The notes under the pieces are model-generated. The model saw nothing but the letters and a program-made list of their open reading frames with translations, did no database searches and was not told the origin of the DNA. A program made the position numbers and the translations under genes. A stretch of 64,000 nucleotides of DNA from Proteobacteria bacterium UBA7415. Lineage in GTDB: Bacteria > Pseudomonadota > Gammaproteobacteria > Arenicellales > Arenicellaceae. The stretch is taken from assembly GCA_002470515.1 (NCBI GenBank), contig DKML01000016.1, positions 132,115-196,114 on the forward strand. Reading direction: 5' to 3'. Positions 23,217 through 50,282 of the stretch are shown one piece after another (positions within the stretch are counted from its first letter, which is position 1; each line of letters opens with the position of its first letter).

Positions 23217-24842
23217 TTAGTTTTTCAAACCGCCTAAAAACTCATCCTTGTACTCTTGCCGCTTGGCTTCAGCCTCATCACCAAAAAATATGATGCAGGC
23301 TTCTTTCAGCCCTGGTGCATCAATAATGTCTTCGGCTCTAATAACTTGAGTAATTTTTGATCTACGTCTTAAGAAGTCATCAAGCTTAGTGACCATCTCG
23401 TGCCGCGCTGTGTGTTCGACTTCACAACGGAGGTACTCAGCATCCTTCATTAACCTTTCAGCCTGTCGCGGGTTTTGGCGTATATCTTCAAGCAACTCGA
23501 GTGCGCCTCCACCATAGCGGCGCCACAAACGTTGGGTCAATGGCTCGCTGGAGCCTTCGACCGTGTAACGATCCAACTCCATCAACTTAGCTTGGTGCAG
23601 AAACTCCTCTTTTACCGCATCTCCATCTTCCCCAAACCACTTAAAGTGGGGGAATGGAAGATCAATGCCCATTTCTCGAACTAAGCCAGTAATTTCGTTA
23701 CCAACGTTAATACAATCAGTGGTTTTACCTCCAAAAATGCTAATGTGTTTTTCTTCAAAATTGCTATCAACCGCATGCTTACGCGACAACTTGACCCAAT
23801 CAGCCACGCCATCACCGCCCTCTTGCGCGAGCGGTCTAACGCCACAACGCTCAGCAATAATGTCTTTGTCAGTAATGGGCTCATCAAAGCTTAGGAGCGC
23901 ATTAATATTATCCAAAACAAACTGACGATCTTCTTGCGTCACTTCTACGTTTGGATCGTCAACTTGAGTATCAGTCGTTCCTATAGAGGTTTTGTTACCC
24001 ATCGGTATAACAAAGAACAATCGCCCATCACTGGCAAAGAACGCCAAGATACGGTTACCCTTAGTCACACGATTAATAATCAAGTGAATGCCTTTGGAAA
24101 ATAAATGGCGATGCTCTGTTGTTTGTTCCGCTTTGGCATTGTGCGTGTCTACGTAAGGACCACACGCATTGATAAGCGCTTTTGCACGAATTTGAAATTC
24201 TTCGCCGCTAATGACATCGCGAGCCGAAATACACCAACGCTCGCCATCCCATTTAGCATCGGTTGACTCTACATAGTTGGCTGCAACACAGCCGTAATTC
24301 ATAGCCGAACGAACAAAATTAAATACGAACCTTGCGTCGTTATCGTAAAGGTAGGCATCGCTGTATTCGAATCCGCCCGCAGCGTTTTCTGTATTAATAA
24401 TAGGTTCGCGTTGCTTAATCGCGCTAACGGGCATCCAGTCAGGTGCCATCGTATAAAAGCGGCCAATCAACCAATAGAAAATAGTCCCTAAGTAAACAAA
24501 AAATGGTGGGAAACGAAAGCCCTTAGCAATGGTCGTAAGAAAGCGTATTTCCTTTACCGTTGACGGGTAATTACGCATCAATTGATTGCGGCTTTTACAC
24601 AAATTATTAACTAGAAAGTACTCGTGTGTCTCTAGGTACTTAATGCCGCCCCAGGCCAAATTAGACGAATTTGAGCTTGTTAGCCCAGCAAAATCTCCGC
24701 GATCGATAAGAGCAACACGAGCGCCCTTTGCACTCAATGCGGCTGCAGAAACCGCACCATTTATGCCTCCACCTATTACCAAAGTATCGAACTCTCTCTT
24801 GGAGTTTTTGAGACGTGCAATGTTGCTATTTCGAAGTTCCAT
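23217..24842 (-). CDS. glpD: FAD-dependent glycerol-3-phosphate dehydrogenase (GlpD-like)
   Basis: 541 aa. The FAD-binding motif VIGGGINGAVSAAALSAKG and DRGDFAGLTSSNSSNLAWGG identify the GlpD/GlpO family. A C-terminal helical domain follows (RYGGGALELLEDIRQN). It oxidises glycerol 3-phosphate to dihydroxyacetone phosphate, passing electrons to quinone. It is somewhat longer than E. coli GlpD (501 aa), with a hydrophobic insertion FPPFFVYLGTIFYWLIGRFY that may strengthen membrane association. There is no glpK or glpF nearby. Substrate assignment is by family. Confidence 0.85.
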   Translation of the reverse strand: MELRNSNIARLKNSKREFDTLVIGGGINGAVSAAALSAKGARVALIDRGDFAGLTSSNSSNLAWGGIKYLETHEYFLVNNLCKSRNQLMRNYPSTVKEIRFLTTIAKGFRFPPFFVYLGTIFYWLIGRFYTMAPDWMPVSAIKQREPIINTENAAGGFEYSDAYLYDNDARFVFNFVRSAMNYGCVAANYVESTDAKWDGERWCISARDVISGEEFQIRAKALINACGPYVDTHNAKAEQTTEHRHLFSKGIHLIINRVTKGNRILAFFASDGRLFFVIPMGNKTSIGTTDTQVDDPNVEVTQEDRQFVLDNINALLSFDEPITDKDIIAERCGVRPLAQEGGDGVADWVKLSRKHAVDSNFEEKHISIFGGKTTDCINVGNEITGLVREMGIDLPFPHFKWFGEDGDAVKEEFLHQAKLMELDRYTVEGSSEPLTQRLWRRYGGGALELLEDIRQNPRQAERLMKDAEYLRCEVEHTARHEMVTKLDDFLRRRSKITQVIRAEDIIDAPGLKEACIIFFGDEAEAKRQEYKDEFLGGLKN

Positions 24843-25429
24843 ATTTCTCTAAAGAAGTTCCACGCTTTTTCTAAAAATGGGTTTGTTAATCGACAGATAA
24901 AATGAATTTGGATCTGCGTCCTAATATTTAGCGGGCGGCGAAGGAGTTCAGCTTTACTGAAATGGATGTCGCACAAAACACCAAATAAACGAGACACACT
25001 ATTTGCGTCGCGTAATTATATGGCAAATGAGAATTTTAGGTTATCTAGATATTGTGACATCTAGATATTGTGACATCTAGATATTGTGTCTTTTGCTCAG
25101 AGCCCTAGTACTTTCTTGCAGAGTGCAGGTCTGCTCATGAAAAGATTAGTACCTATTTTCTACTCAAGTTTGAGCGCTCTGTAGAATAACGCCGATTGTC
25201 TGATTAATTAACGGTCGGCTGCCTTGCAAAAAAGGAGATCTATCGCAACATGACAAAAACGCATTAAGTCGATCAGTATTGAGTTTTAATTGGAGTCCGC
25301 ACACTGAGCATTAACCAAACGGAAAACCCGCTTCACCAAGTACCCTAAAGTAACCTTTGCCCGAAATAGCACTGCCCCGTGAAGACTCTTGGTTTACAAG
25401 CTAACTCTGTAAAACTATTGGGCCAGTGG
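24843..25429. other. 587-bp intergenic region
   Basis: Between the GlpD-like gene start and the MauG-like gene stop. It contains a three-copy 16-bp tandem repeat (listed separately) and otherwise A/T-rich sequence with no convincing ORF or terminator. Confidence 0.5.
25043..25090. repeat. 16-bp tandem repeat, three copies
   Basis: ATCTAGATATTGTGAC at 25043-25058 and 25059-25074, and a third copy at 25075-25090 with one change (GTC at the end). Each unit contains the palindrome ATCTAGAT. It lies about 200 bp upstream of the GlpD-like start codon. Confidence 0.9.
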
Positions 25430-26734
25430 CTAACGACTAGTGCTACTCGTATCCCCAATGGGTGCAGCAAAGGCATCGGCAACTAATTCGCCTACATTAC
25501 TACCAGTAAGCGTGCGCATAAACGCGACTAAGGCCGCCTGCTCATCTGCGCTCAACCCTAATGGCCTAATGAGCGCACTCTGCCCATCGTGCGGTACACC
25601 ACCAGCGTTATAAAACCTAACGACGCTTTCTAAGCTGGCGAACGTTCCGTTGTGCATATAGGGCGCAGTAAGGGCAATATTTCGTAAGCTCGCGGTTCGA
25701 TACTTCCACCGATCCGCTGGATCCAGAGTCACCTCATATCGGCCAACGTCATTGGGTTTATCTTCGCCTACGCTATCCACAACAGACTTATCTAGCTGCC
25801 CTACCACACCAGGAGCTAACTGAACGCTAATAGTCGTTGTCTCTGGCCGCATTGATACCTGATAACCGACCCCTGTGTCGTGTAGCGCTTGATCCGTAAA
25901 CAGCGCGTACTCATCGCCTACTATATGACAGCTAGAGCACTGGGCTTTACCGGCAAAAAGCGCAAAACCCTCTTTCTCCTCTGCGTTGAGAACGTCTTGC
26001 TGGCGCCCATAACGCCATTGATCGAATCGCGAGTTGCCCGCCAATAAGGCTTGTTGGTATTGGGCTAACGCCTGCCCCACGTTAAGCATATTAGGCATTT
26101 CGCCAAAAGCGTCTTCGAATAACTTAGGGTATTCAGGTAGCTGGGCAAGTGTATCAATCACTTGCCCCACTGAGGGATTATTCATTTCGTTGCTTGCCAA
26201 CAAAGGCCCCCACACTTGTTGCTCTAAGCGATTTTCACGTGCGTCTGCAAACAAGCGTTGATAGTAAACCACATTGAGAATTGTGGGTGCATTGCGTTTA
26301 ATTGCGCGACCTTCAAAACCTATGGGGCGCTGTAATTCATTGTTGGTAAATCCTTGCTCTGGGATATGACACATTGCACAAGACATTGTCTTATTACGTG
26401 ATAAACGACGATCGAAGAATAGTTTACGACCGAGTTTGATCGCAGGCTCGCTCGGCTCAAGAAAACGACCTTCTGCTTTTTTAGGAAGGCCAAATTGCGC
26501 TGTGTTGACAATAGCGAAAAGGTTAGCCTCGACCCCACTCCGTACTTCTAAACTCAGAGAATCCGTCTGGTATTGCGGGGACTCATATCCTTCTTTATGG
26601 TCACCAGAGGCTAGCCTGATAGCCGCTTGCTTAGCCTGTTGTGCATGCGTAATGGTGACAAAGCCATCTATAACAATTTCTGTAGACACAAGTAGCAAGG
26701 TCGAAACTAAAACACTAATCGGCAGACGCAGCAT
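25430..26734 (-). CDS. dihaem cytochrome c peroxidase / MauG-like protein
   Basis: 434 aa, exported. It begins with a hydrophobic signal (MLRLPISVLVSTLLLVS). Two haem-c motifs are visible: CAMCH at about residue 119 and CSSCH at about 266. LRNIALTAPYMHNGTFASLE near the C-terminus is the standard CCP/MauG signature. The start overlaps the SCO-like gene by 20 bp, so the pair is coupled. A MauG-like gene with a SCO-like gene beside mtoX is the arrangement described for methanethiol oxidase clusters, where a role in cofactor maturation has been proposed. Peroxide removal is an alternative. Confidence 0.88.
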   Translation of the reverse strand: MLRLPISVLVSTLLLVSTEIVIDGFVTITHAQQAKQAAIRLASGDHKEGYESPQYQTDSLSLEVRSGVEANLFAIVNTAQFGLPKKAEGRFLEPSEPAIKLGRKLFFDRRLSRNKTMSCAMCHIPEQGFTNNELQRPIGFEGRAIKRNAPTILNVVYYQRLFADARENRLEQQVWGPLLASNEMNNPSVGQVIDTLAQLPEYPKLFEDAFGEMPNMLNVGQALAQYQQALLAGNSRFDQWRYGRQQDVLNAEEKEGFALFAGKAQCSSCHIVGDEYALFTDQALHDTGVGYQVSMRPETTTISVQLAPGVVGQLDKSVVDSVGEDKPNDVGRYEVTLDPADRWKYRTASLRNIALTAPYMHNGTFASLESVVRFYNAGGVPHDGQSALIRPLGLSADEQAALVAFMRTLTGSNVGELVADAFAAPIGDTSSTSR

Positions 26735-27452
26735 CGGCTTCCATTACTAAAGTCTTAACGTCGTTTACTAGAATGTCTGGGTGTAAAAAAGACAGACTAT
26801 AGATATTGCGGATCTGCTTTTGCTCGTCAATCAAATACACTCGTAAAATATGCGAGAAGCGATTTCGTTCTTTTTCAACCGACTCCTCCTGCCGGCGATC
26901 CTTCACGACGCTCTGTTGATAGTCTTTTAAGATCGGCGCTAATTCTGTTTCTGAGTTAGTCGTTAAGAACTCCCAATCAATATCAGCGTCACCAAGAATA
27001 GACTCACCATACTCTGCCATTACATCAGGAGTATCAAACTCAGGATCAAAGCTAACCGTGAGCATCCGCATGCGGTCTTTTAACGCTGGGTCCTCTGCAA
27101 TTCGGTTACCTAGGGTGTACAACACCATCGTAGATAATGGACAACCATTAACGTCGTCACACGTGCGATATACAAAACTTAGAACTGTAACCTTACCGTC
27201 CATCAGCTTGTGTAGTCGAGCTGGATCGCCGTTACTTTTTAAAACCGCACCATCTTCAGCCTGGCCTATTGCGGGTAAATTATAGCTACCGGCTAGGGGT
27301 GCATCGAAACTGAGTTTGCCCCATCCTGGGGCTAGATAAGCTTCGGGAGTTGGACTGCTTTCGCTGCTCGCATCAACATTATGAATCAACGAACTCATAA
27401 GGAGTACGAGCGCCAATAGCACCCGTTTTCTTTGCTCAGATAGTTTAGACAT
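26715..27452 (-). CDS. SCO1/SenC-family copper protein
   Basis: About 245 aa from the ATG at 27452; a GTG at 27464 would add four residues but lies almost on top of the ribosome-binding site. An N-terminal signal or anchor (VLLALVLLMSSLIHNVDA) precedes a thioredoxin fold: VTVLSFVYRTCDDVNGCPLS, RMLTVSFDPEFDTPDVM, and the ligand His in RFSHILRVYLID. The cysteines are spaced CX5C, not the canonical CX3C. SCO proteins deliver Cu; here the target is presumably MtoX, encoded just upstream, since MtoX is reported to be copper-dependent. Confidence 0.85.
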   Translation of the reverse strand: MSKLSEQRKRVLLALVLLMSSLIHNVDASSESSPTPEAYLAPGWGKLSFDAPLAGSYNLPAIGQAEDGAVLKSNGDPARLHKLMDGKVTVLSFVYRTCDDVNGCPLSTMVLYTLGNRIAEDPALKDRMRMLTVSFDPEFDTPDVMAEYGESILGDADIDWEFLTTNSETELAPILKDYQQSVVKDRRQEESVEKERNRFSHILRVYLIDEQKQIRNIYSLSFLHPDILVNDVKTLVMEADAASAD

Positions 27453-27508
27453 ACTTGAAGCCACTCTCCCACACTAAATGCTAACCACAACCCAATTGAG
27501 AAAAATAA

Positions 27509-27536
27509 AGCCCAAGCAGGAAATCCTACTTGGGCT
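27509..27536 (-). terminator. rho-independent-type hairpin after mtoX
   Basis: AGCCCAAGCAGGA pairs with TCCTACTTGGGCT (13 bp, one mismatch). On the minus strand it is followed by a T-rich tail (TTTATTTTT). It lies between mtoX and the SCO-like gene, so it would end or attenuate mtoX transcripts. Confidence 0.75.
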
Positions 27537-27573
27537 CAATCATATTTCAATACGCTATTGCGGTATCAATGAA

Positions 27574-28953
27574 CTATTGCGCCGCTAAGTCTGACGACTT
27601 ATCGCTCTTGTTTACAGCCGCCGCAGCCGCTTCCCATGGGCGTTCCATGCCGTAAAGACCATAGGCGCCAAAGCGCATTTGATGCGCACTACCGAGCTTC
27701 TCAGCTTTAAAATCAATCTCAAACTCTAAGTTCAGTTCTTCGCCATTCCAAGTGTACGACTTAAAGAACTGTTCATCGGCTTCTCCCTTCTTATCCCAAT
27801 TGTCCAACAAAGAAGACGTAAAGTACGCGCGCTTGCCATCCCAGCTTTGCGAAATCATATTGAGCTGCGACCCAATCACTTTTTCGTAGGTCTGTTTAGG
27901 TGCAAATGGATCAGACACATCAAAGTACCGCGCCTTGCCATCCATAAACGTTTGTACCCACAGACCGTTGTCATCAGCTGTGATCGAAATATCAACCGGT
28001 AGCGGAATCTTTGATGGATCGCCAATATCGCCTACGGCCTGCGCTTGCCACTCACCTTCTTCATCCTCGTACATCAACCAAATTTGTGACGTGAGTGCGG
28101 TCGTTGTGAAACAGTAATTGTTTTCAGGTTTCCAAGCACAGCGAATTTCCAAAGGTGCACCTGGCATATCAAAAACTTTCTTAGGTTTGCGCGTGTGCAA
28201 ATCCCAAACAACCGCCGTGTTACCAAAGCGTTTCATGGCCTCTGGGTCTTGTAGCATCGTGCCAAAATCCATCATGTAGTTGTTCCAACCCGTAAACGAG
28301 CTAGTAAACATGGCGTTTCGACGCGGCATTGCACGAAGGTCATACCCGTATCCATCTGCAAACTGACCAGACTTAATCGCGCCCTGGAGATTGTCGTCAG
28401 TAGGCATCCAGTGGGTTGCAATGTAGTCACCGGTATTGGTGTACTCAACCAACGCTGTACGACCGCCATGATCTGCATTATTAGATAGGCCGGTAATCAT
28501 GATTCGGCCCGCCAAAGCATAGAACGTGTGAGGTCCAACCACTCCGCCGCTTTTAGCCACAAAGTCATCTATGGTTTTAAACAATGTAGGCTTTGCCGGA
28601 TCGCTATGGACGTCAAATATAAATATCTTGTTGCTGTCCAAACCACCGGCCCACAAATAGTGCCGGTCATCTGTTAAGCCTGAATGATGCGCTTCATTAC
28701 GACCGCCTACCGAGAGTGTCTCAATAACTGTGCCGTAGTCTGGGGCAGATGGGTTAACACTAATCGTAACCAGCTTGTCTTGTTCGTCACCAAGGCCCTC
28801 TTCGCCTAAAGTCCAGACGTACACAAAGTCTTCTTGACCTACGATTTTCGCCATATAAGGCGACATGCAAGTTTCGTCAGCTTGAGTCGCACTCACGCCG
28901 AGAGCTAGTGCCAGGACACTAGCGTATGCCATTGATTTTAAATTGAATTTCAT
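27574..28953 (-). CDS. mtoX: methanethiol oxidase (selenium-binding protein SBP56 family)
   Basis: About 459 aa from the ATG at 28953, which has GGAGG 7 bases upstream; a longer open frame to 29136 has no such support. The signal peptide MKFNLKSMAYASVLALALGV sends it to the periplasm. SBP56 motifs include ETLSVGGRNEAHHSGLTDD, HYLWAGGLDSNKIFIFDV and GSAHQMRFGAYGLYGMERPW. Bacterial SBP56 was shown to be a Cu-dependent methanethiol oxidase giving formaldehyde, H2S and H2O2. SCO-like and MauG-like genes follow, and SQR and persulfide-dioxygenase-like genes precede it, matching removal of sulfide. Confidence 0.92.
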   Translation of the reverse strand: MKFNLKSMAYASVLALALGVSATQADETCMSPYMAKIVGQEDFVYVWTLGEEGLGDEQDKLVTISVNPSAPDYGTVIETLSVGGRNEAHHSGLTDDRHYLWAGGLDSNKIFIFDVHSDPAKPTLFKTIDDFVAKSGGVVGPHTFYALAGRIMITGLSNNADHGGRTALVEYTNTGDYIATHWMPTDDNLQGAIKSGQFADGYGYDLRAMPRRNAMFTSSFTGWNNYMMDFGTMLQDPEAMKRFGNTAVVWDLHTRKPKKVFDMPGAPLEIRCAWKPENNYCFTTTALTSQIWLMYEDEEGEWQAQAVGDIGDPSKIPLPVDISITADDNGLWVQTFMDGKARYFDVSDPFAPKQTYEKVIGSQLNMISQSWDGKRAYFTSSLLDNWDKKGEADEQFFKSYTWNGEELNLEFEIDFKAEKLGSAHQMRFGAYGLYGMERPWEAAAAAVNKSDKSSDLAAQ

Positions 28954-29074
28954 TTCGTTCCTCCGTTGATCTTTAAAAATATGGATCTGCCTTTTGGTAT
29001 TTCTGACCACCTGTGAATCTGTATAAACGTAATTGGGCGTTTTTGAGTGTCTAAGTGAATTAAACAAACGCCTC

Positions 29075-30310
29075 TTAGAGAGACTTAGGACCCGCGAATA
29101 TTTCACGACCTTTGAGCATAGCGTGCCAATAAACACTCGGTAATATAGCGGTCTTGAGAAACCATGCTTGAGATGAAGGCCTTGTGCCGTCGTTCAGCCA
29201 ATTGGCGAATGTGGGCAATAACTTGCCTCCGTAACCAAATTCTGCCAAAACGATCTTACCATTCTCGACAGTAAGAGGACAAGACCCGTAACCGTCGTAC
29301 TGCACCGATGGTGCGTGACCTTGCAAGGCGTTCACTATGTTTTGTGCAACAACTGGCGCTTGTTTTCGAGCCGCCGCCATTGTCTTAGCATTGGTTGTGT
29401 TAATGATGTCACCAGCCCCCCAAACATTTTGGTATTTTGTATGCATGAGAGTCGCGGGGTCTACATCTAGCCAGCCACTAGCGTCTGCAAGCGCACTGTC
29501 TTTTATAAAATCGGGGGCGCGCTGAGGCGGGCACACATGCAAGAAATCAAAATCGGTCTCAACAGTTTCTACGCCATCTTCCTTAGTATGTACAAACCAA
29601 GCCTTTTTTGCGGCTCCGTCAACTTTAACAAGCTTGTGTAAAAAATTAAGGCTAGCCTGATACTTCTCCATGTACTCCATGAGCGCAGGAACGTAATCAG
29701 CCACCCCAAAAAGCACACCAACGGCGTTGTAGAACTGAATATCGATATCCGCCAAGCGATTTTCTGACAACCAATGAGACGCCGACAGATACAAGGCTTT
29801 TTGTGGTGCACCCGCACATTTAATCGGCATAGGAGGCTGGGTGAATACGGCGCGACCTTGCTTCATGTCCTGCACCAGCTCCCATGTATAGGGAGCCAGG
29901 TCGTAGCGATAATTTGAGGTTACGCCATTATTGCCAAGCGCGCTTTCAAGCCCTTCGACACCAGCCCAATCTAAAACAAGGCCCGGCGCGACTATCAGCT
30001 GACGGTATTCAATCTCTGCGCCATCGTGCAATACCACACAATTGTCGTCCGGCTTAAAGCTTGCTACTGACGCTTTGAGCCAAACAGCCGAATTGGGTAT
30101 TAATGTTTGAGTCAGGCGATGGGTTGATTCTACGTTAAAAATACCTCCACCCACCATGGTCCAACCTGGTTGGTAGTAGTGATCATCAGAAGGGTCTATC
30201 AAAGCAATTTTAACAGCGCCATCTCGCTTAAGAATACTACTCGCCGCGGCGATACCCGCAGAGCCAGCCCCTACTATAACTACATCGAACTGCTGATTGC
30301 TTGTGCTCAT
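29075..30310 (-). CDS. sqr: sulfide:quinone oxidoreductase-like flavoprotein
   Basis: 411 aa. The FAD-binding DVVIVGAGSAGIAAASSIL, HYYQPGWTMVGGGI and NVWGAGDIINTTNAKTMAAA match the SQR family, closest in flavour to the mitochondrial-type (SQOR-like) group. Candidate redox cysteines lie at about 165 (PIKCAGAPQ), 260 (HVCPPQ) and 344 (YGSCPLT). It oxidises sulfide to sulfane sulfur and reduces quinone at the membrane. It sits between the persulfide-dioxygenase-like gene and mtoX on the same strand, consistent with consuming the H2S made by MtoX. Confidence 0.9.
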   Translation of the reverse strand: MSTSNQQFDVVIVGAGSAGIAAASSILKRDGAVKIALIDPSDDHYYQPGWTMVGGGIFNVESTHRLTQTLIPNSAVWLKASVASFKPDDNCVVLHDGAEIEYRQLIVAPGLVLDWAGVEGLESALGNNGVTSNYRYDLAPYTWELVQDMKQGRAVFTQPPMPIKCAGAPQKALYLSASHWLSENRLADIDIQFYNAVGVLFGVADYVPALMEYMEKYQASLNFLHKLVKVDGAAKKAWFVHTKEDGVETVETDFDFLHVCPPQRAPDFIKDSALADASGWLDVDPATLMHTKYQNVWGAGDIINTTNAKTMAAARKQAPVVAQNIVNALQGHAPSVQYDGYGSCPLTVENGKIVLAEFGYGGKLLPTFANWLNDGTRPSSQAWFLKTAILPSVYWHAMLKGREIFAGPKSL

Positions 30311-30442
30311 ATGTTTCCTTTAATTATTCAAATTGACTGTTCTCAATCGCTTTTCTCAGGACGCTTCAAATTTTCTATTATTTAATCCAATCGCGTTTTA
30401 ACCGCTCCTGATAGAATCTCTTACATTAACCTTAACGGCTGA

Positions 30443-31351
30443 TCAAGAATCCTCGGTAATTAAGGCGGGCTTAAGTCCATTGATCGGGATCTTCAAGTAC
30501 ACCGTACCATTATCTTGAGAAACAGGGAAATGCCCCGCCCGCATATTGACTTGCAAGGCCGGTAGAATTAGTCGCGGCATTCCTAGGGTTTTATCTCGGG
30601 CCAGACGCATCTGCACATAGTCTTGTTGACTTATGCCATGTCCTACATGAACATTATTAGCGCGCTGATCTGCAACGGTGGTTCGACACTCTAACTCGCG
30701 ACCATTGGGCTGATAATCGTGGCACATATACAGCGCTGTATCGTCTGAAAGCTCTAAAACACGCTGTATCGACTGATACAGCTGCTGTGCGCAACCTCCA
30801 GGAAAGTCCGCCCGAGCAGTTCCCCCATCAGGCATAAACAGAGTATCTCCAACGAACGCTGAATTGCCCAAAACATGGGTCATGCATGCAGGAGTGTGCC
30901 CAGGCGTGTAAAGTGCAATACACGGTAACTCACCTAAGTAGTAGTGTTCATCGTCTTTGAGCAGCTTATCAAATTGACTTCCGTCTCGCTGAAACCGCGT
31001 TCCCTCATTAAACACGCGACCAAATTCTTCTTGCACCTGCGCTATATGCTGGCTGATCATAATCTGACCACCAAGCTTTTCCTGAATATAGGGTGCGGCC
31101 GATAAGTGGTCTGCATGAACGTGAGTTTCGATTAACCACTGTAGGTCTAATCCACGTCGCTTAATAATATCAATGATCCCATCTGCACTTTCGTACCCGA
31201 TCGATCCCGACGGATAGTCAAAGTCGAGCACTGAATCAATCACAGCACAGCTAAGGCTGTTTGGATCTTGGACTAAATAGGAGAAAGTATTGCTGTCAGA
31301 GTCAAAAAATGGCTCGATATGCGGCTGAATTTCACAATCCCAATCAATCAT
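30443..31351 (-). CDS. MBL-fold persulfide dioxygenase-like hydrolase (ETHE1/Blh type)
   Basis: 302 aa. The metal-binding motif ETHVHADHLSAAPYIQ (HxHxDH), TPGHTPACMTHVLG, GDTLFMPDGGTARADFPGG and YMCHDYQPNGRE are those of ETHE1/Blh proteins. The expected reaction is glutathione persulfide + O2 to sulfite + GSH. The gene order with sqr and mtoX supports a sulfide-detoxification role. Family glyoxalase II proteins share the motif, but the GTARADF segment favours the persulfide-dioxygenase group. It begins the minus-strand sulfur run. Confidence 0.87.
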   Translation of the reverse strand: MIDWDCEIQPHIEPFFDSDSNTFSYLVQDPNSLSCAVIDSVLDFDYPSGSIGYESADGIIDIIKRRGLDLQWLIETHVHADHLSAAPYIQEKLGGQIMISQHIAQVQEEFGRVFNEGTRFQRDGSQFDKLLKDDEHYYLGELPCIALYTPGHTPACMTHVLGNSAFVGDTLFMPDGGTARADFPGGCAQQLYQSIQRVLELSDDTALYMCHDYQPNGRELECRTTVADQRANNVHVGHGISQQDYVQMRLARDKTLGMPRLILPALQVNMRAGHFPVSQDNGTVYLKIPINGLKPALITEDS

Positions 31352-31582
31352 GTGCTCACTCTCATTGGACTCTGGCTTTTCTGATTATTGTGTTCCAAAT
31401 ACAGACGCATATTCAAAAAATTGTCGCCGAGCACTCTCAGCACACAATCAATCAAAGCCATCTATCTTGGTTAGTCCAATCAAAATACCGAAAATAGGCC
31501 GGCATGTAAACGTGGTATCTCTATGTGCGTTCTTTATGAGCCTGTAAATTAACTAATAATTTATACACAGTGAGCACTAAAA

Positions 31583-31610
31583 GGCCGAATCGAGTCCTTC
31601 CGATTCGGCC
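31583..31610 (-). terminator. hairpin terminator after the small exported protein
   Basis: GGCCGAATCG and CGATTCGGCC arms with an 8-nt loop. The minus-strand side ends in TTTTAG. It separates the small exported-protein gene from the persulfide-dioxygenase-like gene start. Confidence 0.65.
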
Positions 31611-31693
31611 CTAAATGCCAGTCAAACACTCCGGCTAAATGCCCATGCGATACCTGATGCAAAACCCGATATTACAGCCCGTAACAAGTAGGT

Positions 31694-31963
31694 CTAGGTT
31701 GCATCGCTCACAGAAGAACTTGCATTGATCTGTGTAAAGTCATCGCTTGAGCTTGCCTTGATTTGATCGTGCACTAGAGCTTGCACTTGGTCGATCGACT
31801 GACGTGCCTTGGCAAGACTATAAATCTCGAAGTTGGCTACAGCCGGTTGAGATTTCACTCTAATAACGTCGGGATGCGGCGCATAGAATTTAATTTTTGC
31901 CTGAGCAACATTTGCTGCAAAAATTGAAGTGCACAATAAAGCCAGTATTGTTAATGTTTTCAT
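31694..31963 (-). CDS. small exported protein, unknown function
   Basis: 89 aa. MKTLTILALLCTSIFAANVA is a clear signal peptide (cleavage after AQA), giving a mature protein of about 67 residues rich in Ser, Ala and Asp at the C-terminus. AGGA lies 9 bases upstream of the ATG, and a terminator follows about 85 bp downstream, so the gene is very likely real. It shows no cysteine in the mature part. No family recognised. It lies inside the sulfur block but has its own transcription signals. Confidence 0.65.
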   Translation of the reverse strand: MKTLTILALLCTSIFAANVAQAKIKFYAPHPDVIRVKSQPAVANFEIYSLAKARQSIDQVQALVHDQIKASSSDDFTQINASSSVSDAT

Positions 31964-32055
31964 GTCTAAGTGTCCTAGTGTAATTCGTTAAGGGCTTTGT
32001 GTAGCGCCTATATAGATTTAGACGTGGCTTACTCTTGTTTGGATTCAAAATAGTT

Positions 32056-32075
32056 TGTCTAATTAATATTAGACA
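32056..32075. promoter_or_regulatory. palindrome TGTCTAAT-N4-ATTAGACA
   Basis: Perfect 8-bp arms around TAAT in the 334-bp divergent gap between the small exported-protein gene and the SDR gene. The symmetry and position fit a repressor or activator operator; no particular regulator is encoded nearby. The rest of this gap holds no recognisable gene. Confidence 0.45.
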
Positions 32076-32297
32076 TTAAATCAAACACTTAGCTCCCTTT
32101 ATATTATTGCCGACCTTATTCAGAACGGCTTTGGGCTTTGATACCTGCCGCGTTTTAATGTGTGACGCTCACAATTGAAAGTCGGACACTGATTATTTGA
32201 CTAAGACATCAAACCCCATGTTTAGTTCTTAAGTCGCTAGAATTCCGATAAACTAAGTCAATAGATTGGTCCTTCTAAATCACCCTACAGAGCCGTC

Positions 32298-33065
32298 ATG
32301 CCACAACACAAATCTCCAGACGCCCATTCCAGCCAATTAAATAAGGCTGCTCTCATTGTCGGTGCAGGCGATGACACCGGTGCTGCGATCGCTGAGGCAT
32401 TTGCAGCAGAGGGCTATACGGCTTGCATCGTAAGGCGCGAGCGACATGCCGACAAACTAGAATTACTCGCTGCATCAATCAGAGCAAAAGGACACAAGGC
32501 GATTGCTTACCCTGGCGATGCCCGCGACGAACAAGCCATCATCGCGTTGGTTGAATCAATTGAACGCGATGTAGGTCCAATCGAAGTCACCGTTTTCAAT
32601 ATCGGGGCTAACGTAATGTTTTCGGTTATAGACACTAGTGCACGCGTCTTTAGTAAAGTGTGGGAGATGGCTTGCTTTGCGGGTTTTTTAACCGGCAGAG
32701 AGGTTGCTAAACGGATGCTCCAAAGAAAACGCGGTACCATTATTTTTACTGGCGCTACAGCAAGCGTACGCGGCGCCGGGGGATTCTCAGCATTTGCTAG
32801 CGCTAAGCATGGGTTGCGCGCATTGGCCGAATCTATGGCCAGGGAGCTTGGACCCAACAACATTCATGTCGCTCATACGATCATTGACGGCATGATCGAT
32901 TCTAACTTTATTCGCGAGAATTTTGATAAAGCTGACGAAATGCGCGAACAGGACGCCATTTTGAACCCTGAACACATTGCAGCCAACTATGTGATGTTGC
33001 ACAAACAACCTAGAACCGCATGGACTTTTGAACTTGATTTAAGACCATGGAAAGAAAAATGGTAA
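32298..33065 (+). CDS. short-chain dehydrogenase/reductase
   Basis: 255 aa classical SDR. The cofactor motif ALIVGAGDDTGAAIAEAFAA is a variant (GAGDDTG instead of TGxxxGxG). NIGAN replaces the usual NNAG. The catalytic tetrad Ser is in FTGATASVRGAGG, but the next motif reads FSAFASAKHGLRAL, where the usual Tyr of YxxxK is replaced by Phe or Ala, so activity on standard substrates is doubtful. Some SDRs annotated as oxidoreductases of this group share such a degenerate site. It is followed 30 bp later by the HCCA-isomerase-like gene, forming a pair. Confidence 0.8.
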   Translation: MPQHKSPDAHSSQLNKAALIVGAGDDTGAAIAEAFAAEGYTACIVRRERHADKLELLAASIRAKGHKAIAYPGDARDEQAIIALVESIERDVGPIEVTVFNIGANVMFSVIDTSARVFSKVWEMACFAGFLTGREVAKRMLQRKRGTIIFTGATASVRGAGGFSAFASAKHGLRALAESMARELGPNNIHVAHTIIDGMIDSNFIRENFDKADEMREQDAILNPEHIAANYVMLHKQPRTAWTFELDLRPWKEKW

Positions 33066-33095
33066 TCAACCACCAATTTTGACGAAAACCAGATA

Positions 33096-33701
33096 ATGAC
33101 TGACACTAAGACGATTGAATTTGTATTCGATTTCGCTAGCCCCAATGCTTACTTTGTACACAAGGCTTTACCGACCTACCTGGCTGACCATGATGTGGAG
33201 GTTCGTTATGTCCCTGCACTTTTGGGCGGGATATTTAAACTAACAGGCAATAGCGCACCTATGGTTGCCTTTGCTGATATTAAGGGCAAAATGGAATACG
33301 AGCACTTGGAAATAAGCCGGTTTATAAAGAAGCACCGTCTTTCCAACTTTCGAATGAACACGCATTTTCCCGTTAACACTATTACCATGATGCGCGGCGC
33401 CACCTTTGCACAAGATAAGGGTTGGTATATGGACTATGTATCAGTATGCTTTGAAGCCATGTGGGAAGGCAGCCTCCTTATGAGCGACCCTGAAGTGATG
33501 ACTAAAGCACTAGAGGCACGTAACCTAGATGCTGGCGCAATCCTAGCAGCCTGCCAAGAGCAGACGATTAAGGACCGGCTCATGCAAACCACTCATGCCG
33601 TTGTGCAACGCGGAGTCTTCGGTATTCCAACCGTGTTTATTGGCGAAGAAATGTTTTTTGGCAAAGAGCGGTTGGCTCAAATCGCTGAGGCTCTTGCGTA
33701 A
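33096..33701 (+). CDS. 2-hydroxychromene-2-carboxylate isomerase-like (DsbA/kappa-GST fold) protein
   Basis: 201 aa thioredoxin-fold protein without a CxxC. The N-terminal FVFDFASPNAYFVHKALP carries the Ser that binds glutathione in HCCA isomerases and kappa GSTs. RGVFGIPTVFIGEEMFFGKE is the conserved C-terminal cis-Pro/substrate region. The substrate is unknown; glutathione use would suit a region where persulfides are made. The last codons and stop lie in the first copy of a 21-bp tandem repeat. Confidence 0.85.
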   Translation: MTDTKTIEFVFDFASPNAYFVHKALPTYLADHDVEVRYVPALLGGIFKLTGNSAPMVAFADIKGKMEYEHLEISRFIKKHRLSNFRMNTHFPVNTITMMRGATFAQDKGWYMDYVSVCFEAMWEGSLLMSDPEVMTKALEARNLDAGAILAACQEQTIKDRLMQTTHAVVQRGVFGIPTVFIGEEMFFGKERLAQIAEALA

Positions 33702-33741
33702 CTAGCTGAGGCTCTTGCGTAACTAGCTGAGGCTCTTTTTT
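33684..33741. repeat. 21-bp tandem repeat overlapping the stop of the HCCA-isomerase-like gene
   Basis: GCTGAGGCTCTTGCGTAACT plus A at 33684-33704 and 33705-33725 are identical; a third partial copy (GCTGAGGCTCTT) starts at 33726. The in-frame TAA at 33699-33701 falls in copy one, so duplication would not lengthen the protein. Confidence 0.9.
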
Positions 33742-33770
33742 AATTCGAACCTGATTGACGGAACATAATT

Positions 33771-34187
33771 ATGACTTTACCCATCTGGCCGATTATCGGC
33801 GGCATACTAATTGGCAGCTCAGCCGTGTTGCTTATGTGGCTGATCGGACGAACGGCGGGCATTAGCTCAATCGTATGGAACGCTATCTCAACTCCCAACT
33901 CAGACAGAATCTGGCAAGTATTGTTTGTCTTTGGATTGGCTATTGGAGCCTTTCTCTTTCATGAGCTGAGTGGCCGCCCGTTCCCCCAAATAAACAATGA
34001 CCCTAAGCTGGCTATCGCGGCGGGTCTACTGGTTGGCTTCGGAGTACGGCTCGGCAGTGGTTGCACGAGTGGTCATGGAGTCTGTGGCATTGGCCGACTC
34101 GCACCTCGTTCCTTGGTTGCAACGAGCGTATTCATGGTGGTTGCAATACTGACCGTCAAAATAGTTAGAAACACAATGGGGGCGTAA
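33771..34187 (+). CDS. YeeE/YedE-family sulfur-compound transporter half (PmpA-like)
   Basis: 138 aa, four membrane segments. The signature GVRLGSGCTSGHGVCGIGRL has the conserved Cys of the YeeE/YedE family, proteins that move thiosulfate or sulfane sulfur. This is the two-subunit type rather than the fused long YeeE. Its stop codon is directly followed by the ATG of the second half (TAAATG). Position beside SQR and persulfide-dioxygenase genes fits sulfur-compound exchange; PmpAB-type pairs are often found beside such genes. Confidence 0.9.
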   Translation: MTLPIWPIIGGILIGSSAVLLMWLIGRTAGISSIVWNAISTPNSDRIWQVLFVFGLAIGAFLFHELSGRPFPQINNDPKLAIAAGLLVGFGVRLGSGCTSGHGVCGIGRLAPRSLVATSVFMVVAILTVKIVRNTMGA

Positions 34188-34604
34188 ATGAAAGCACTTA
34201 CAGGACTATGCGCTGGCATCCTTTTTGGAATTGGCTTGGCCGCGTCAGGAATGACCGATACGGCTAAAGTGATCGGCTTTTTAGATATTACAGGCCACTG
34301 GGATCCAGACCTTATATGGGTAATGGGAAGCGCTGTATTGGTAACTCTTGTAGGTTACCGAATTGTTTTCAAACGCAGTAAACCAGTGTTTGCTGAGTCG
34401 TTTTCAATACCTAGCAAAATCACAATTGATACTCGTTTAATACTAGGTGCTGGACTTTTTGGTCTTGGCTGGGGTCTCTACGGATATTGCCCAGGGCCAG
34501 CGATAGCAGCCCTAGTTTATCAGTCGCCGACCACCCTTTTATTTGTCTTAACCATGCTTTTTGGAATGTGGTTAAGTGGCTGGGTATCAGGCCAGTTTAA
34601 ATGA
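34188..34604 (+). CDS. YeeE/YedE-family sulfur-compound transporter half (PmpB-like)
   Basis: 138 aa, four membrane segments, partner of the preceding gene. It begins MKALTGLCAGILFGIGLAAS with the SGMTDTAKVIGFLDI motif. Its conserved Cys is in GLYGYCPGPAIAAL. Together the two halves reproduce the pseudo-symmetric fold of a full-length YeeE channel. A strong inverted repeat follows immediately as terminator. Confidence 0.9.
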   Translation: MKALTGLCAGILFGIGLAASGMTDTAKVIGFLDITGHWDPDLIWVMGSAVLVTLVGYRIVFKRSKPVFAESFSIPSKITIDTRLILGAGLFGLGWGLYGYCPGPAIAALVYQSPTTLLFVLTMLFGMWLSGWVSGQFK

Positions 34605-34607
34605 TAT

Positions 34608-34654
34608 TGTGCTTTTAAAGCCCTAGCGGTATGCGCTAAGGCTTTAAAAGCACA
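34608..34654. terminator. bidirectional terminator hairpin, member of a repeated family
   Basis: Long inverted repeat with the core AAAGCCCTAGCG and CGCTAAGGCTTT, extended outward by TGTGCTTTT and AAAAGCACA. It separates the convergent transporter and acyltransferase genes. The same core recurs at 36895 and 37101. Confidence 0.75.
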
Positions 34655-34744
34655 GACCTTATTTTATTTAGACGCCTTAATAGGATTGTCCTTTCTTGCT
34701 TGCGAATTATTTGGTTCACACCCTTAGACCAACCGTTCAATCTA

Positions 34745-36775
34745 TCACTGACTCTCGGTTAAAGCCTTCTCAATCGTTGGCACCAAAAACTTCCCAACAT
34801 ATTTTGAACCTTCGTACCCAAGATGAGAGGTATCGTGATAAAGCAATTTATTATCGACAACGGCGTGGCAGTACTCGCTGTCACACAGAGTTGTAGCAAC
34901 GTCAAATACTCTAATTGTGGGAAATTCTGACAACACCTTTTTTGCTATTCGAAAGTATTGAACTCGTTGATTGTCGTAAACTTCACGCTTCATCTTACAG
35001 GTAGCTTGGCTTGAATTAATTCGAAATGGGCGAGTCAAGCATGACTTTGGATCAAAATTCAAGAGAGGGTTATCAAGCACATAAATCACTTGCTTACCGC
35101 TTTGCGTCAGTTTTTCAAATGTTTCGCGCATTTTGTTTTCTACAATTCGAGCGGGGTTCTTAGCCTCAAGATTTTTAATATCTACAATATTATTCCAGCA
35201 AGCGCTAGTCGTAAGAACTATTACTTTAACGGCTGGCTCGTTAATAGAAAAATCAAGAGCTTTATTAATTTGCTTTGCCCTAGGGTATAAATAATCAGGG
35301 GTTCGCTGCCTTGCGGGGATTGAGACGGAAATATCGTAGAAAGGCATAGCACATCCGTGAGGAAACAATCCCGTGTTGTGCTCCTGTCCCACATAGTAAG
35401 AAATGCCATAATGAATTCGGCGGGCATGTGAATCACCAATAACGACTATTTTAGGTTTGCCTTTGTCTAAAAACAGACACTTGAACGTATCTCTTGTCTT
35501 ATTCCACTCGGGAAATATCTCTCCACAATTATCTTCATATGACGGATGAAGTCGTTCCCATTCCTTTACTTCCTCTACACCAGCTCCCAATCTCGAAGTC
35601 AACTCCCGCTGATGTGCCAGCAAACCAGTAGCAGCAATAAAAGTCATTATGACCAATAACGCAATCGTCCAACGTTTTTGAACACCACTCCCCCCTGTGC
35701 GTACCGGTTTCTCCGCAAAATAATACGTAAGTGTCGCTAAAACAACGGCAACAACCAAAAGAGTGAATCGCAGCGACACGCTGAGAGGTTCAGACTCAAT
35801 TATCCGAACAAAAGATAATAATGGCCAATGCCATAAATAAAGTGGGTAACTTATTAATCCAATAAAGACGGCAGGTTTGCTGCTCAGAATATGCTTATTC
35901 ACCCAAGCTTGCTGTCCGGAATAAATTATAATCACGGCACCCAATACGGGAATCATCGCACGCCAACCCGGGAAGTTATCGGTCTTGTCTATAAAAATCA
36001 CAGACAAAAGAATTAAACCTAGCCCAGCGAAAGAAAGCATTGATTTTCTTAACGACGAGTCACCAGACATTTCACTCGATAACGCATTGCCCACATTATC
36101 GGTTTTCGACAAATAAGTCTGCTTATTAAAAGCAACAGCGGCTAATATCGCGCCAGCCATAAGCTCCCAGACTCGTGTGTACGGAAAATAAAATGTGCCG
36201 TTAGGGTCTGAGCGCACCCAATACAAATTAGAAGCTAACGAGACTGCTGCGATCACAATAACGAGAGTCAACACAGTAAAACCTTTGCGCCACGCAAGCC
36301 AAACAATCAGAGGGAACAGCAGGTAAAATTGCTCCTCAATCGCCAGAGACCAAAGATGCAGTAACGGCTTTAACTCACTACTGATATCAAAATAACCTAC
36401 CTCATCCCAGAGAATAAAATTTTGAATAAAACCAGCACTAGCCGCAACATGCTTACCCAACATTTTAAATTCATCTGCGTCGAGTGCAAACCAACCAAAA
36501 GTAAGAGTTGCTGTCAGTACTAGCGTTAAAGCAGGGAACAGTCTTCGAACGCGTCGCGAATAAAACTCTACAAATGAAAAACTTTCTTGTTTGAGTTCAC
36601 GAAAAATAATCGTGGAAATCAAGAACCCAGAGATAACAAAAAATATATCAACACCGACAAAGCCACCGGGCAAAAAACCTGGAAACGCATGAAAGAATAT
36701 GACGGGCAAAATCGCCATCGCCCTTAAACCATCAATATCGGCTCTGTACTTAGTATGTTGATTAGAACTATTCAT
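34745..36775 (-). CDS. OafA/YrhL-type membrane acyltransferase with SGNH domain
   Basis: 676 aa. The N-terminal acyltransferase-3 domain (about 1-350, ten or more membrane segments) shows YRADIDGLRAMAILPVIFFH and FVGVDIFFVISGFLISTIIF. The C-terminal SGNH hydrolase-like domain has GDSHARRIHYG and the DTSHLGYEG (DxxH) motif. It probably acetylates a surface polysaccharide such as LPS O-antigen or exopolysaccharide. It is a single gene. Its distance from the rhamnose genes (over 16 kb) gives no direct substrate clue. Confidence 0.92.
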   Translation of the reverse strand: MNSSNQHTKYRADIDGLRAMAILPVIFFHAFPGFLPGGFVGVDIFFVISGFLISTIIFRELKQESFSFVEFYSRRVRRLFPALTLVLTATLTFGWFALDADEFKMLGKHVAASAGFIQNFILWDEVGYFDISSELKPLLHLWSLAIEEQFYLLFPLIVWLAWRKGFTVLTLVIVIAAVSLASNLYWVRSDPNGTFYFPYTRVWELMAGAILAAVAFNKQTYLSKTDNVGNALSSEMSGDSSLRKSMLSFAGLGLILLSVIFIDKTDNFPGWRAMIPVLGAVIIIYSGQQAWVNKHILSSKPAVFIGLISYPLYLWHWPLLSFVRIIESEPLSVSLRFTLLVVAVVLATLTYYFAEKPVRTGGSGVQKRWTIALLVIMTFIAATGLLAHQRELTSRLGAGVEEVKEWERLHPSYEDNCGEIFPEWNKTRDTFKCLFLDKGKPKIVVIGDSHARRIHYGISYYVGQEHNTGLFPHGCAMPFYDISVSIPARQRTPDYLYPRAKQINKALDFSINEPAVKVIVLTTSACWNNIVDIKNLEAKNPARIVENKMRETFEKLTQSGKQVIYVLDNPLLNFDPKSCLTRPFRINSSQATCKMKREVYDNQRVQYFRIAKKVLSEFPTIRVFDVATTLCDSEYCHAVVDNKLLYHDTSHLGYEGSKYVGKFLVPTIEKALTESQ

Positions 36776-48343: not shown

Positions 48344-49552
48344 CTAACTATCTAGGCCTTGATAGTAGTCCATTAGGATTTGAGCCACTTCTGGACGTGA
48401 AAACTCAGGTGGTGGTGCAATACCATTACCCAACAACTCACGGACCTTAGTGCCCGAAAGCAATACGAAGTCTTCGGGTGAGTGGTCTGGTGCATCACGC
48501 ATCATCACTACCTTATCCAACTTTTTAGAGTACGCAGTATGATCTGCATTGTATATCTTGATCTCTAATGCGTCCGCAGGGACTTGCTCAGTGAAAATGG
48601 TCTGAGCGTCGAAAGCGCCATAATAGTCGCCAACCCCCGCATGGTCACGGCCAACGATAAGGTGTGTCGCACCCATATTTTGTCTAAATAGTGCGTGCAA
48701 TACCGCTTCGCGCGGTCCTGCGTACAACATATCGAAACCGTAACCGGTAACCATTACAGAATTGCTAGGGAAGTAATGTTTAACCATAGTACGAATAGAT
48801 GCGTCTCGAACATCAGCTGGAATGTCACCCGCTTTCAATTTGCCTAATAGCATGTGCACTACACAACCCGTGCTGCCTGGCTCGCCAGTTTCTGCGTCGA
48901 TATCGTTCATTGCCATGCGGCATAGTTCTTCGTGTGCGCGGTGCATAGGATTACGTGTTTGGAACGCAACCACGTTTGACCAACCGCGCTCTGAGATTTC
49001 ATCTCGTATTTCTACCGCGGTTCTAAATGTATCGCCGAACTCTCCAGCGAAGTAACTAAAGTTTAAAACCTGGATAGGCCCTGCAACCACATATTTACCT
49101 TGCGACAAAAAGGCACCAACACCCGGATGATTGGTGTCGGTGGTTCCGAATACTTGCTGCGCTATCAATTGGACTTCGTCATCAGTAAGAGTGTCAATCG
49201 CTGTTACCGTTTGCACAGCAATCACCGGATTGCCCGCGACATTGGGATCGGTTAAAGCAATTTTTTGACCTATTTCAAAATCAACACTTGGCAATAAGTT
49301 CAATACAGGGACAGGAAAGAAAGTTCCATCCGTTGTGTGCATTGAAGTTGCAACTTCCAAGGCATCCGCCTTAGTCATGTAACCGGATAGCGGAGTAAAG
49401 TAACCACCACCCATCATTACAGCATTGGCCGCCGTAGCAGAACTCACCAGCACATTGGTCAAAGCTGCACTTTCTTCAAGCACTCTGGCGCGTTCGCCAG
49501 AATCAGAAAGATACAAAGGTAGTAGTGCGTCGGCACCATGGGGTTTAATCAC
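48344..49552 (-). CDS. sat: sulfate adenylyltransferase (ATP sulfurylase, Sat type)
   Basis: 402 aa, homo-oligomeric type, not CysD/CysN. FQTRNPMHRAHEELCRMAM holds the QxRNPxHxxH motif, and LIVGRDHAGVGDYYG is the second signature. I accept a GTG start at 49552, with AGGAG 9 bases upstream. It makes APS from ATP and sulfate, or the reverse in sulfur oxidisers. The APS kinase gene precedes it in the same direction, 106 bp apart, so PAPS formation is the simplest role. No AprAB is encoded in the window. Confidence 0.96.
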   Translation of the reverse strand: MIKPHGADALLPLYLSDSGERARVLEESAALTNVLVSSATAANAVMMGGGYFTPLSGYMTKADALEVATSMHTTDGTFFPVPVLNLLPSVDFEIGQKIALTDPNVAGNPVIAVQTVTAIDTLTDDEVQLIAQQVFGTTDTNHPGVGAFLSQGKYVVAGPIQVLNFSYFAGEFGDTFRTAVEIRDEISERGWSNVVAFQTRNPMHRAHEELCRMAMNDIDAETGEPGSTGCVVHMLLGKLKAGDIPADVRDASIRTMVKHYFPSNSVMVTGYGFDMLYAGPREAVLHALFRQNMGATHLIVGRDHAGVGDYYGAFDAQTIFTEQVPADALEIKIYNADHTAYSKKLDKVVMMRDAPDHSPEDFVLLSGTKVRELLGNGIAPPPEFSRPEVAQILMDYYQGLDS

Positions 49553-49658
49553 AACAAGCTCCTGAAAATTGTAGGGTTAACGTTTAGTTAAATATGTTTT
49601 TAAATAGCGCGTACTCACTCAGCTACAGCGCTATTGCTGCTTCTATTGCTTACCGGTT

Positions 49659-50282
49659 CTAGCGATAAAGAATTAGGTAACGGTGCTCTTGAAGATAGTT
49701 AAGAATGATCTCAACTTCGTCTTCCAAGGTCATTTCGTCTGTGTGCAGGACAATCTCGGGATCGATTGGTGCTTCATATGGGTCATCAATACCAGTGAAG
49801 TTTTTAATCTCGCCTGCTCGTGCTTTTTTATAAAGGCCTTTTGGGTCACGTTCTTCGGCACACGCTAGTGCGCAGTCAACATGGACCTCAATAAAGTTAT
49901 ATCCGCTGTCTTCATGCAATTGGCGCACAGTATCTCGGTCAGCACGGTATGGGCTAATAAAACTGTTAAGCGTGATTATGCCGGTATCGCAATAGAGCTT
50001 TGATATCTCGCCAATACGCCGAATGTTCTCAGTACGATCTTCTTGAGAAAACCCGAGGTTTTTGTTGATGCCTAACCGGATGTTGTCGCCATCGAGTCGA
50101 TAGCTCAACTTACCAAGCTTGTGCAACGCTTTTTCTACGGCTACCGCAATAGTACTCTTGCCACTGCCTGACAAACCAGTGAACCACAATGTGGCGCCAC
50201 GCTGGCCAAGACGATTAAAACGATCTGCACGAGTTACTTCACCATCATGCCAAACTACGTTATTTGCTACTTGCTGTGTCAT
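49659..50282 (-). CDS. cysC: adenylylsulfate (APS) kinase
   Basis: 207 aa. P-loop [20 protein letters not shown], then [20 protein letters not shown], and [20 protein letters not shown] are diagnostic CysC sequences. It phosphorylates APS to PAPS, completing activation of sulfate with Sat encoded downstream. It is the first gene of a two-gene unit; three degenerate tandem repeats lie 33 bp upstream of its start. Confidence 0.96.

Follow-up and report, generated by a model that had tools for sequence, protein, structure and literature searches.

A candidate methanethiol disposal block linking SQR and persulfide dioxygenase genes to mtoX in an Arenicellaceae bacterium

In a 64,000-nucleotide (nt) stretch of the genome of Proteobacteria bacterium UBA7415, a member of the Arenicellaceae (contig DKML01000016.1, positions 132,115 to 196,114; hereafter the window), we found five adjoining minus-strand genes that probably form a methanethiol disposal block, joined within one clade from two modules: a persulfide dioxygenase (PDO) and sulfide:quinone oxidoreductase (SQR) pair, and the set mtoX-SCO-MauG, in which mtoX encodes methanethiol oxidase (MTO). 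In a related genome (G143) all five genes recur with order and strand unchanged, at identities of 61% for PDO, 69% for SQR, 81% for MtoX, 61% for SCO and 59% for MauG, and this conservation argues that the block is more than a product of chance. The combination is already known in kind from the Methylophaga mto-clusters, as described in 2019 in PMC6548844; what is new here is the detail on the distribution, arrangements and control of the block.

The five genes and their products

The preliminary description of this DNA had read the minus strand as PDO-like, SQR, mtoX, SCO-like and MauG-like genes in transcription order, and had placed an SDR, an isomerase-like protein and two YeeE/YedE genes on the opposite strand. 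The open reading frames (ORFs) of the window confirmed all nine genes at the same coordinates and strands, and the Pfam families agree (CCP_MauG, SCO1-SenC, SBP56, Pyr_redox_2, Lactamase_B, adh_short, DSBA, Sulf_transp and DUF6691). The block, its genes and its hairpins are as follows.

31351-25430, minus strand: five-gene block, transcription order PDO, SQR, mtoX, SCO, MauG-like
30443..31351, minus strand: PDO, bacterial type of Pseudomonas (PpPDO/PaPDO), 302 amino acids (aa); PDB matches
29075..30310, minus strand: SQR, mitochondrial SQOR type, 411 aa; PDB match 6MP5
27574..28953, minus strand: mtoX, methanethiol oxidase, 459-aa precursor; NF052453, start and ribosome-binding site
26715..27464, minus strand: SCO-like copper chaperone with CX5CP motif (CDDVNGCP); PF02630, 52.5 bits
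25430..26734, minus strand: MauG/MbnH-like di-heme enzyme with two CXXCH; PF03150, 170 bits
27508..27537, minus strand: terminator-like hairpin 3' of mtoX, 13-pair stem followed by TATTTTTC
31581..31612, minus strand: terminator-like hairpin 5' of PDO, ending the preceding small ORF; fold z -3.78

The MtoX protein scored 753.1 bits against the methanethiol oxidase model NF052453 of NCBIfam, passing its cut-off of 650, and is 68.7% identical to Ruegeria pomeroyi MtoX over residues 25-429; judged by its sequence, it would catalyse methanethiol oxidation. Its likely start is at 28953, with GGAGG just 5' of it, and is favoured over the ORF start at 29136. The precursor begins with a signal-like (Sec) N-terminus, after which the mature protein is predicted, by eye, to start with DETCMSP; this matches the sequenced N-terminus DETX of the Hyphomicrobium MTO (PMC5739008) and thereby supports the assignment. 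Histidines H89, H90, H142 and H424 are kept in 101, 100, 101 and 101 of 101 aligned sequences, and Cys29, within DETCMSPYM, in all 101, the role of the histidines with copper being taken from PMC5739008 and that of the N-terminal cysteine from PMC10936201. Cys272 and Cys281 are likewise invariant (101/101); the R. pomeroyi MTO is reported with a single cysteine (PMC10936201).

SQR, the sole full-length copy in the window genome, found its best PDB match in human SQOR 6MP5 (320 bits, residues 7-407), against 76 bits for FCSD 5N1T and 25 bits for the Aquifex-type 3HYV. Both of its cysteine stretches aligned with SQOR (KCAGAPQK, and GSCPL / TSCPL), whose active-site residues are named as Cys201 and Cys379 in PMC12510033. 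At 172.9 bits it fell below the cut-off of 525 of the NCBIfam model for type III SQR (selenoprotein subtype) and was therefore not assigned to that subtype. The metal-site motifs of PDO are kept, the stretches THVHADH, GHTPA and GDT aligning with Pseudomonas PDO structures. The best PDB matches of PDO were 9G8T (348 bits) and 4YSK (342 bits; residues 8-292), both identified as PDOs in PMC12856154, and it lies nearer to Pseudomonas PDO than to ETHE1 (75 bits). We rejected its classification as a Blh sulfurtransferase/dioxygenase, since it covers only model positions 139-422 of 423, without the N-terminal sulfurtransferase domain, with 352 against 625 bits. As enzyme types, SQR and PDO would suit the oxidation of sulfide to sulfite. 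In locus L123 (G284, contig C132) an in-frame stop splits the SQR copy into two ORFs, and a second SQR copy lies on another contig.

The MauG-like protein matched the di-heme MbnH-type enzyme 6E1C best (137 bits), rather than MauG, and scored below the curated cut-offs for MauG (186 against 444 bits) and for MbnH (TIGR04039, 225 against 363 bits). Its Tyr375, kept in 63/63 covered rows of a 74-row alignment, stands opposite the axial Met of the peroxidase 4AAL. Among SCO proteins beside mtoX, the CX5CP motif (CxDxNGCP) was present in 84/84 sequences scoring at least 90 bits, and weaker SCO-like ORFs of the same loci had CX3CP in 23 of 24 cases. The motif reads CGDVNGCP in R. pomeroyi and CGDVCP in Skermanella, where the compared stretch held no MauG gene. 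Among the papers listed for the term CX5C in a literature search, none dealt with the SCO CX5CP motif.

Recurrence and arrangement around mtoX

We counted 105 mtoX loci, the window included, and scored as linked those with SQR or PDO within 6 kb of mtoX. Rows that duplicated the position of the window or of L112-L117 (L001, L013, L014, L032-L035 and L037) and those of distant SBP56 proteins (L027-L031) were dropped beforehand; the set still holds the near-duplicates L012/L066 and L002/L049, and close relatives of the window mtoX are over-represented in it. SCO was found in 93 of the loci and MauG in 91; SQR was found in 8 and PDO in 5. Because the flanks of L002-L026, only about 1.5 kb long, are too short to reveal PDO, we also used a subset of 45 loci whose flanks reach 3 kb or more upstream and 5 kb or more downstream, in which SCO and MauG occurred 40 times each, SQR 4 times and PDO twice.

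Linkage of SQR and/or PDO to mtoX was seen in 9/105 loci, in several arrangements, and the combination is not general. All nine linked loci belong to a single mtoX clade with 12 members (support 100 by a quick tree method); of the remaining three, L117 and L036 show no linkage, while the contig of L116 ends within the locus. The order PDO-SQR-mtoX-SCO-MauG is shared by the window, G143 (L112) and L038, and SQR-mtoX-SCO-MauG by L113, L040 and L041, together with L039 at a contig edge. The order mtoX-SCO-MauG-PDO-SQR occurs in L114 and mtoX-SCO-MauG-PDO in L115, whose contig ends about 670 nt further on, with no SQR seen. SQR and PDO lie on the mtoX strand in all nine. Comparing mtoX neighbourhoods, as the preliminary description had proposed, brought back mtoX-SCO-MauG with SQR/PDO as a recurrent arrangement, and not the wide nine-gene unit. 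L054 (47%), L088 and L098 (22-23%) have SQR-like genes beyond the 6-kb limit, at a distance of about 8 kb.

A survey of 21 genomes of the family, with orthologues called at identities of at least 60% for SQR, 57% for PDO and 60% for FisR, found mtoX in 7, an SQR orthologue in 8 (9 at the E-value limit) and a PDO orthologue in 10 (20 at the E-value limit). mtoX and SQR occur together in 6 of the 21 (Fisher p 0.0032, relatedness not corrected).

A route for methanethiol sulfur

In the proposed mechanism, MtoX would be exported to the periplasm and would split methanethiol into formaldehyde and reduced sulfur, with SCO supplying copper and the MauG-like enzyme helping MtoX maturation, two roles that published work likewise infers. 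Sulfide would cross the membrane, the SQOR-type SQR would convert it to a low-molecular-weight persulfide and pass the electrons to quinone, and PDO would oxidise this persulfide to sulfite. Formaldehyde would be handled by a glutathione-dependent dehydrogenase encoded elsewhere, and the window genome has such a formaldehyde dehydrogenase on another contig (631 bits, cut-off 544). A methionine gamma-lyase search was set aside as uninformative: its best match reached 376.8 bits, short of the 549.7 required, and the family was matched in 14/14 control genomes as well. Methanethiol reversibly inhibits human SQOR and can serve as an SQOR acceptor (PMC12510033); its removal by MtoX would also protect SQR, and this inhibition offers a reason for keeping mtoX and SQR together.

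The closest known counterparts are mto-clusters 1 and 2 of Methylophaga thiooxydans, for which PMC6548844 lists, in order, mtoX, sco1/mauG, SCO, PDO, SQR and sulP. Like the window, they hold mtoX, SCO/MauG, PDO and SQR in one neighbourhood and have a periplasmic MTO and a cytoplasmic PDO. They differ in that SCO and MauG are fused there but separate in the window, in the presence of a second SCO/TlpA and of sulP, and in listing PDO and SQR after mtoX, whereas in the window the pair lies upstream; no sulP permease was found among the scanned window ORFs (23217-36775). Beyond PMC6548844, the literature, most of it judged from brief entries, yielded no further description of the combination, and a search for methanethiol oxidase with Arenicella returned no paper. 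The mtoX-SCO-mauG operon of Hyphomicrobium and R. pomeroyi (PMC5739008) shares with the window the three core genes, their order and the MtoX histidines. At the R. pomeroyi locus (L132) mtoX is preceded by an IclR gene, and directly after MauG comes the gene of a glutathione-dependent formaldehyde dehydrogenase; R. pomeroyi links the carbon half of the pathway to mtoX, whereas the window links the sulfur half. The human proteins SELENBP1, SQOR and ETHE1 follow the same order of chemistry as the block, and the window SQR is SQOR-like; the window PDO is closer to Pseudomonas PDO than to ETHE1, and bacterial MtoX is periplasmic and a distant relative of SELENBP1 (26% identity for the Hyphomicrobium MTO; PMC5739008).

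The form in which MtoX releases its sulfur is contested. The classical MTO products are formaldehyde, H2S and H2O2, and with the Hyphomicrobium enzyme no less than 75% of the sulfur in methanethiol was recovered as H2S (PMC5739008); PMC10936201 reports that three MTOs of Rhodobacteraceae formed sulfane sulfur but not H2O2, drops SQR from the route, and finds that the R. pomeroyi MTO needs Cys28. We consider it possible, but the less probable course, that MtoX yields sulfane sulfur here too, in which case PDO would be the true downstream enzyme and SQR would clear sulfide from stray reduction or from outside. The window MtoX has the matching Cys29, and in L115 PDO stands beside mtoX with no SQR in view. 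Against this, besides the Hyphomicrobium result, SQR adjoins mtoX in 8/9 linked loci and PDO in 5, four loci have SQR and no visible PDO beside mtoX, among them L113 and L041 with more than 6 kb of upstream sequence, and in G275, whose genome is 99% complete, a PDO orthologue is missing, the matches being of 36% identity or lower. This pattern of the clade, though indirect, fits H2S as the MtoX product better, but it would equally allow for sulfane sulfur that is then reduced to H2S. Of the earlier proposal that SQR and PDO turn the H2S from MtoX into sulfite, the enzyme types hold up, but H2S as the product is disputed by PMC10936201.

Control, limits of the block and meaning

PDO-SQR pairs also stand without mtoX, in G274, in G256 and twice in G276 (once with SQR cut by a contig end), and three of these four face a divergent FisR-like activator gene. 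FisR orthologues were found in 3/21 genomes, each divergent from PDO; G291 has only a 42% match, and a search of the window genome at E <= 1e-60 found no FisR orthologue. Upstream of PDO, a strict sigma-54-like site is present in 3/3 FisR-linked pairs against 0/14 other upstream stretches, in a test that left out the lone PDOs of G277, G286 and G287 and used a pattern settled post hoc, after earlier output had been viewed. As background, the pattern matched 5 times across 429,336 nt, the three FisR-linked sites included, and it occurs nowhere in the 64-kb window. The mtoX-linked versions of PDO-SQR have neither a FisR-like gene nor such a site, and among the eight SQR-bearing genomes FisR is present in 0/5 linked and 3/3 unlinked ones (p 0.018, uncorrected). 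FisR-controlled PDO-SQR genes of Acinetobacter and Cupriavidus (described in PMC7315123) are the same pair as in the window, but control of this type, with its divergent gene and sigma-54 site, is met with in related genomes and not in the window. The linked versions would thus be without the FisR/sigma-54 control seen at the three unlinked pairs. We tentatively suggest, as a bolder extension that may well fail, that SQR, and not PDO, is the key partner of MtoX in this clade, with sulfur arriving as H2S, and that a sulfide module formerly activated by persulfide through FisR and sigma-54 was rehoused beside mtoX under methanethiol-linked control. On this view SQR would be produced jointly with MtoX, which supplies its substrate and clears away its inhibitor.

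These data also bear on the view, which we regard as unlikely, that PDO-SQR is an ordinary sulfide defence pair standing beside mtoX by chance and with no functional tie. The mtoX-free pairs, the predominance of unlinked mtoX loci and the strong hairpins found on the PDO side and at the end of mtoX all speak for it, but PDO/SQR recur on both sides of mtoX and always on its strand, FisR is gone from every linked family genome, and Methylophaga provides an independent instance (PMC6548844).

The preliminary description had treated the genes as one unit. From PDO to mtoX, the spacers (132 nt for PDO/SQR, 121 nt for SQR/mtoX) hold no terminator-like site of note, weak ones being listed; the idea of one unit is weakened by the hairpin between mtoX and SCO, where the 109-nt gap folds to -37.9 kcal/mol (z -4.31; 0/200 shuffles as low). 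The hairpin 5' of PDO was found by folding and is absent from the terminator scan output. Terminator-like hairpins follow mtoX in 11/42 gaps against 12/182 other same-strand gaps of 40-200 nt (p 7e-4, relatedness not corrected), a count that includes SCO/MauG fusions and drops three near-identical loci; an initial count gave 7/16 gaps from mtoX to SCO against 14/235 others, and 32 further mtoX pairs, often overlapping, fell outside the 40-200 nt range. The hairpins following mtoX in other lineages are unrelated in sequence, and the R. pomeroyi mtoX gap also folds to a hairpin (z -2.0). We infer that the hairpin may cause partial termination, giving more MtoX than maturation factors. A promoter scan gave 8 sites, fewer than the shuffle mean of 15.2, and was not used.

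Several observations weigh against a joint disposal block. Linkage is confined to one mtoX clade and involves few of the full-flank loci, and within that clade neither SQR nor PDO was found close to the mtoX of L117 and L036. In G281 (genome 78% complete) mtoX is present but SQR has no match whatsoever, and the other PDO-SQR pair of G276, on C104, is accompanied by none of mtoX, FisR and a sigma-54 site. The terminator-like hairpin splits mtoX from SCO-MauG, and the 132- and 121-nt spacers could hold separate promoters. Finally, the SQR and PDO trees do not set linked copies apart from unlinked ones, and none of the mtoX, SQR and PDO trees resolved how often linkage arose.

Divergent from the block stand the following genes.

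32298..33065, plus strand: SDR, judged outside the conserved unit; PF00106, 114 bits
33096..33701, plus strand: HCCA-isomerase / GST-kappa-like DSBA-fold protein, judged outside the unit; DSBA family
33771..34604, plus strand: two YeeE/YedE half-transporters; PF04143 and PF20398

The second of these had been called a glutathione-type isomerase-like protein; it is a DSBA-fold protein, and its closest match is the 2-hydroxychromene-2-carboxylate (HCCA) isomerase 2IMD. The SDR and isomerase have orthologues near mtoX in the window only (1/105 loci); different SDRs adjoin mtoX in L116 and L036, and the isomerase, matched in 6/21 family genomes, shares a contig with mtoX only in that of the window. 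YeeE/YedE occur in 8/21 family genomes and near one other mtoX, about 7 kb away in L097; two other family mtoX genomes have them on a different contig from mtoX. In G274, where no mtoX stands at the locus, a YeeE/YedE pair neighbours PDO-SQR together with the FisR-like gene and a gene of the ArsR family. A link of YeeE/YedE to sulfur disposal is possible, while one to mtoX is not supported. The BigR yeeE-yedE-pdo2 operon, which unites an ArsR-family repressor gene with YeeE/YedE and a PDO, is arranged unlike the window, where YeeE/YedE lie on the strand opposite PDO, and the ORFs of the window block include no ArsR-family gene. We therefore rejected the claim of the preliminary description that the entire 25.4-34.6 kb stretch is one pathway: G274 and the yeeE-yedE-pdo2 operon known in Acinetobacter (PMC7315123) lend it something, but the window-only SDR and isomerase, the single other mtoX near YeeE/YedE and the opposite strand of all four genes make it most improbable.

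Elsewhere in the window, a minus-strand ORF at 31694-31963 (89 aa) starts with a signal-like stretch and is followed by a strong hairpin, with no Pfam match and no relative among the mtoX loci compared. Cytochrome bd oxidase genes (4087-6437) and ATP sulfurylase and APS kinase genes (48344-50282) lie at least 17 kb from the block.

Methanethiol occupies a central place among the intermediates of the marine sulfur cycle. The clade, with its varied joins of SQR and PDO to mtoX, offers natural test cases for the dispute between H2S and sulfane sulfur as the MTO product, and for the change in regulation that a sulfide defence module undergoes on joining a new pathway.

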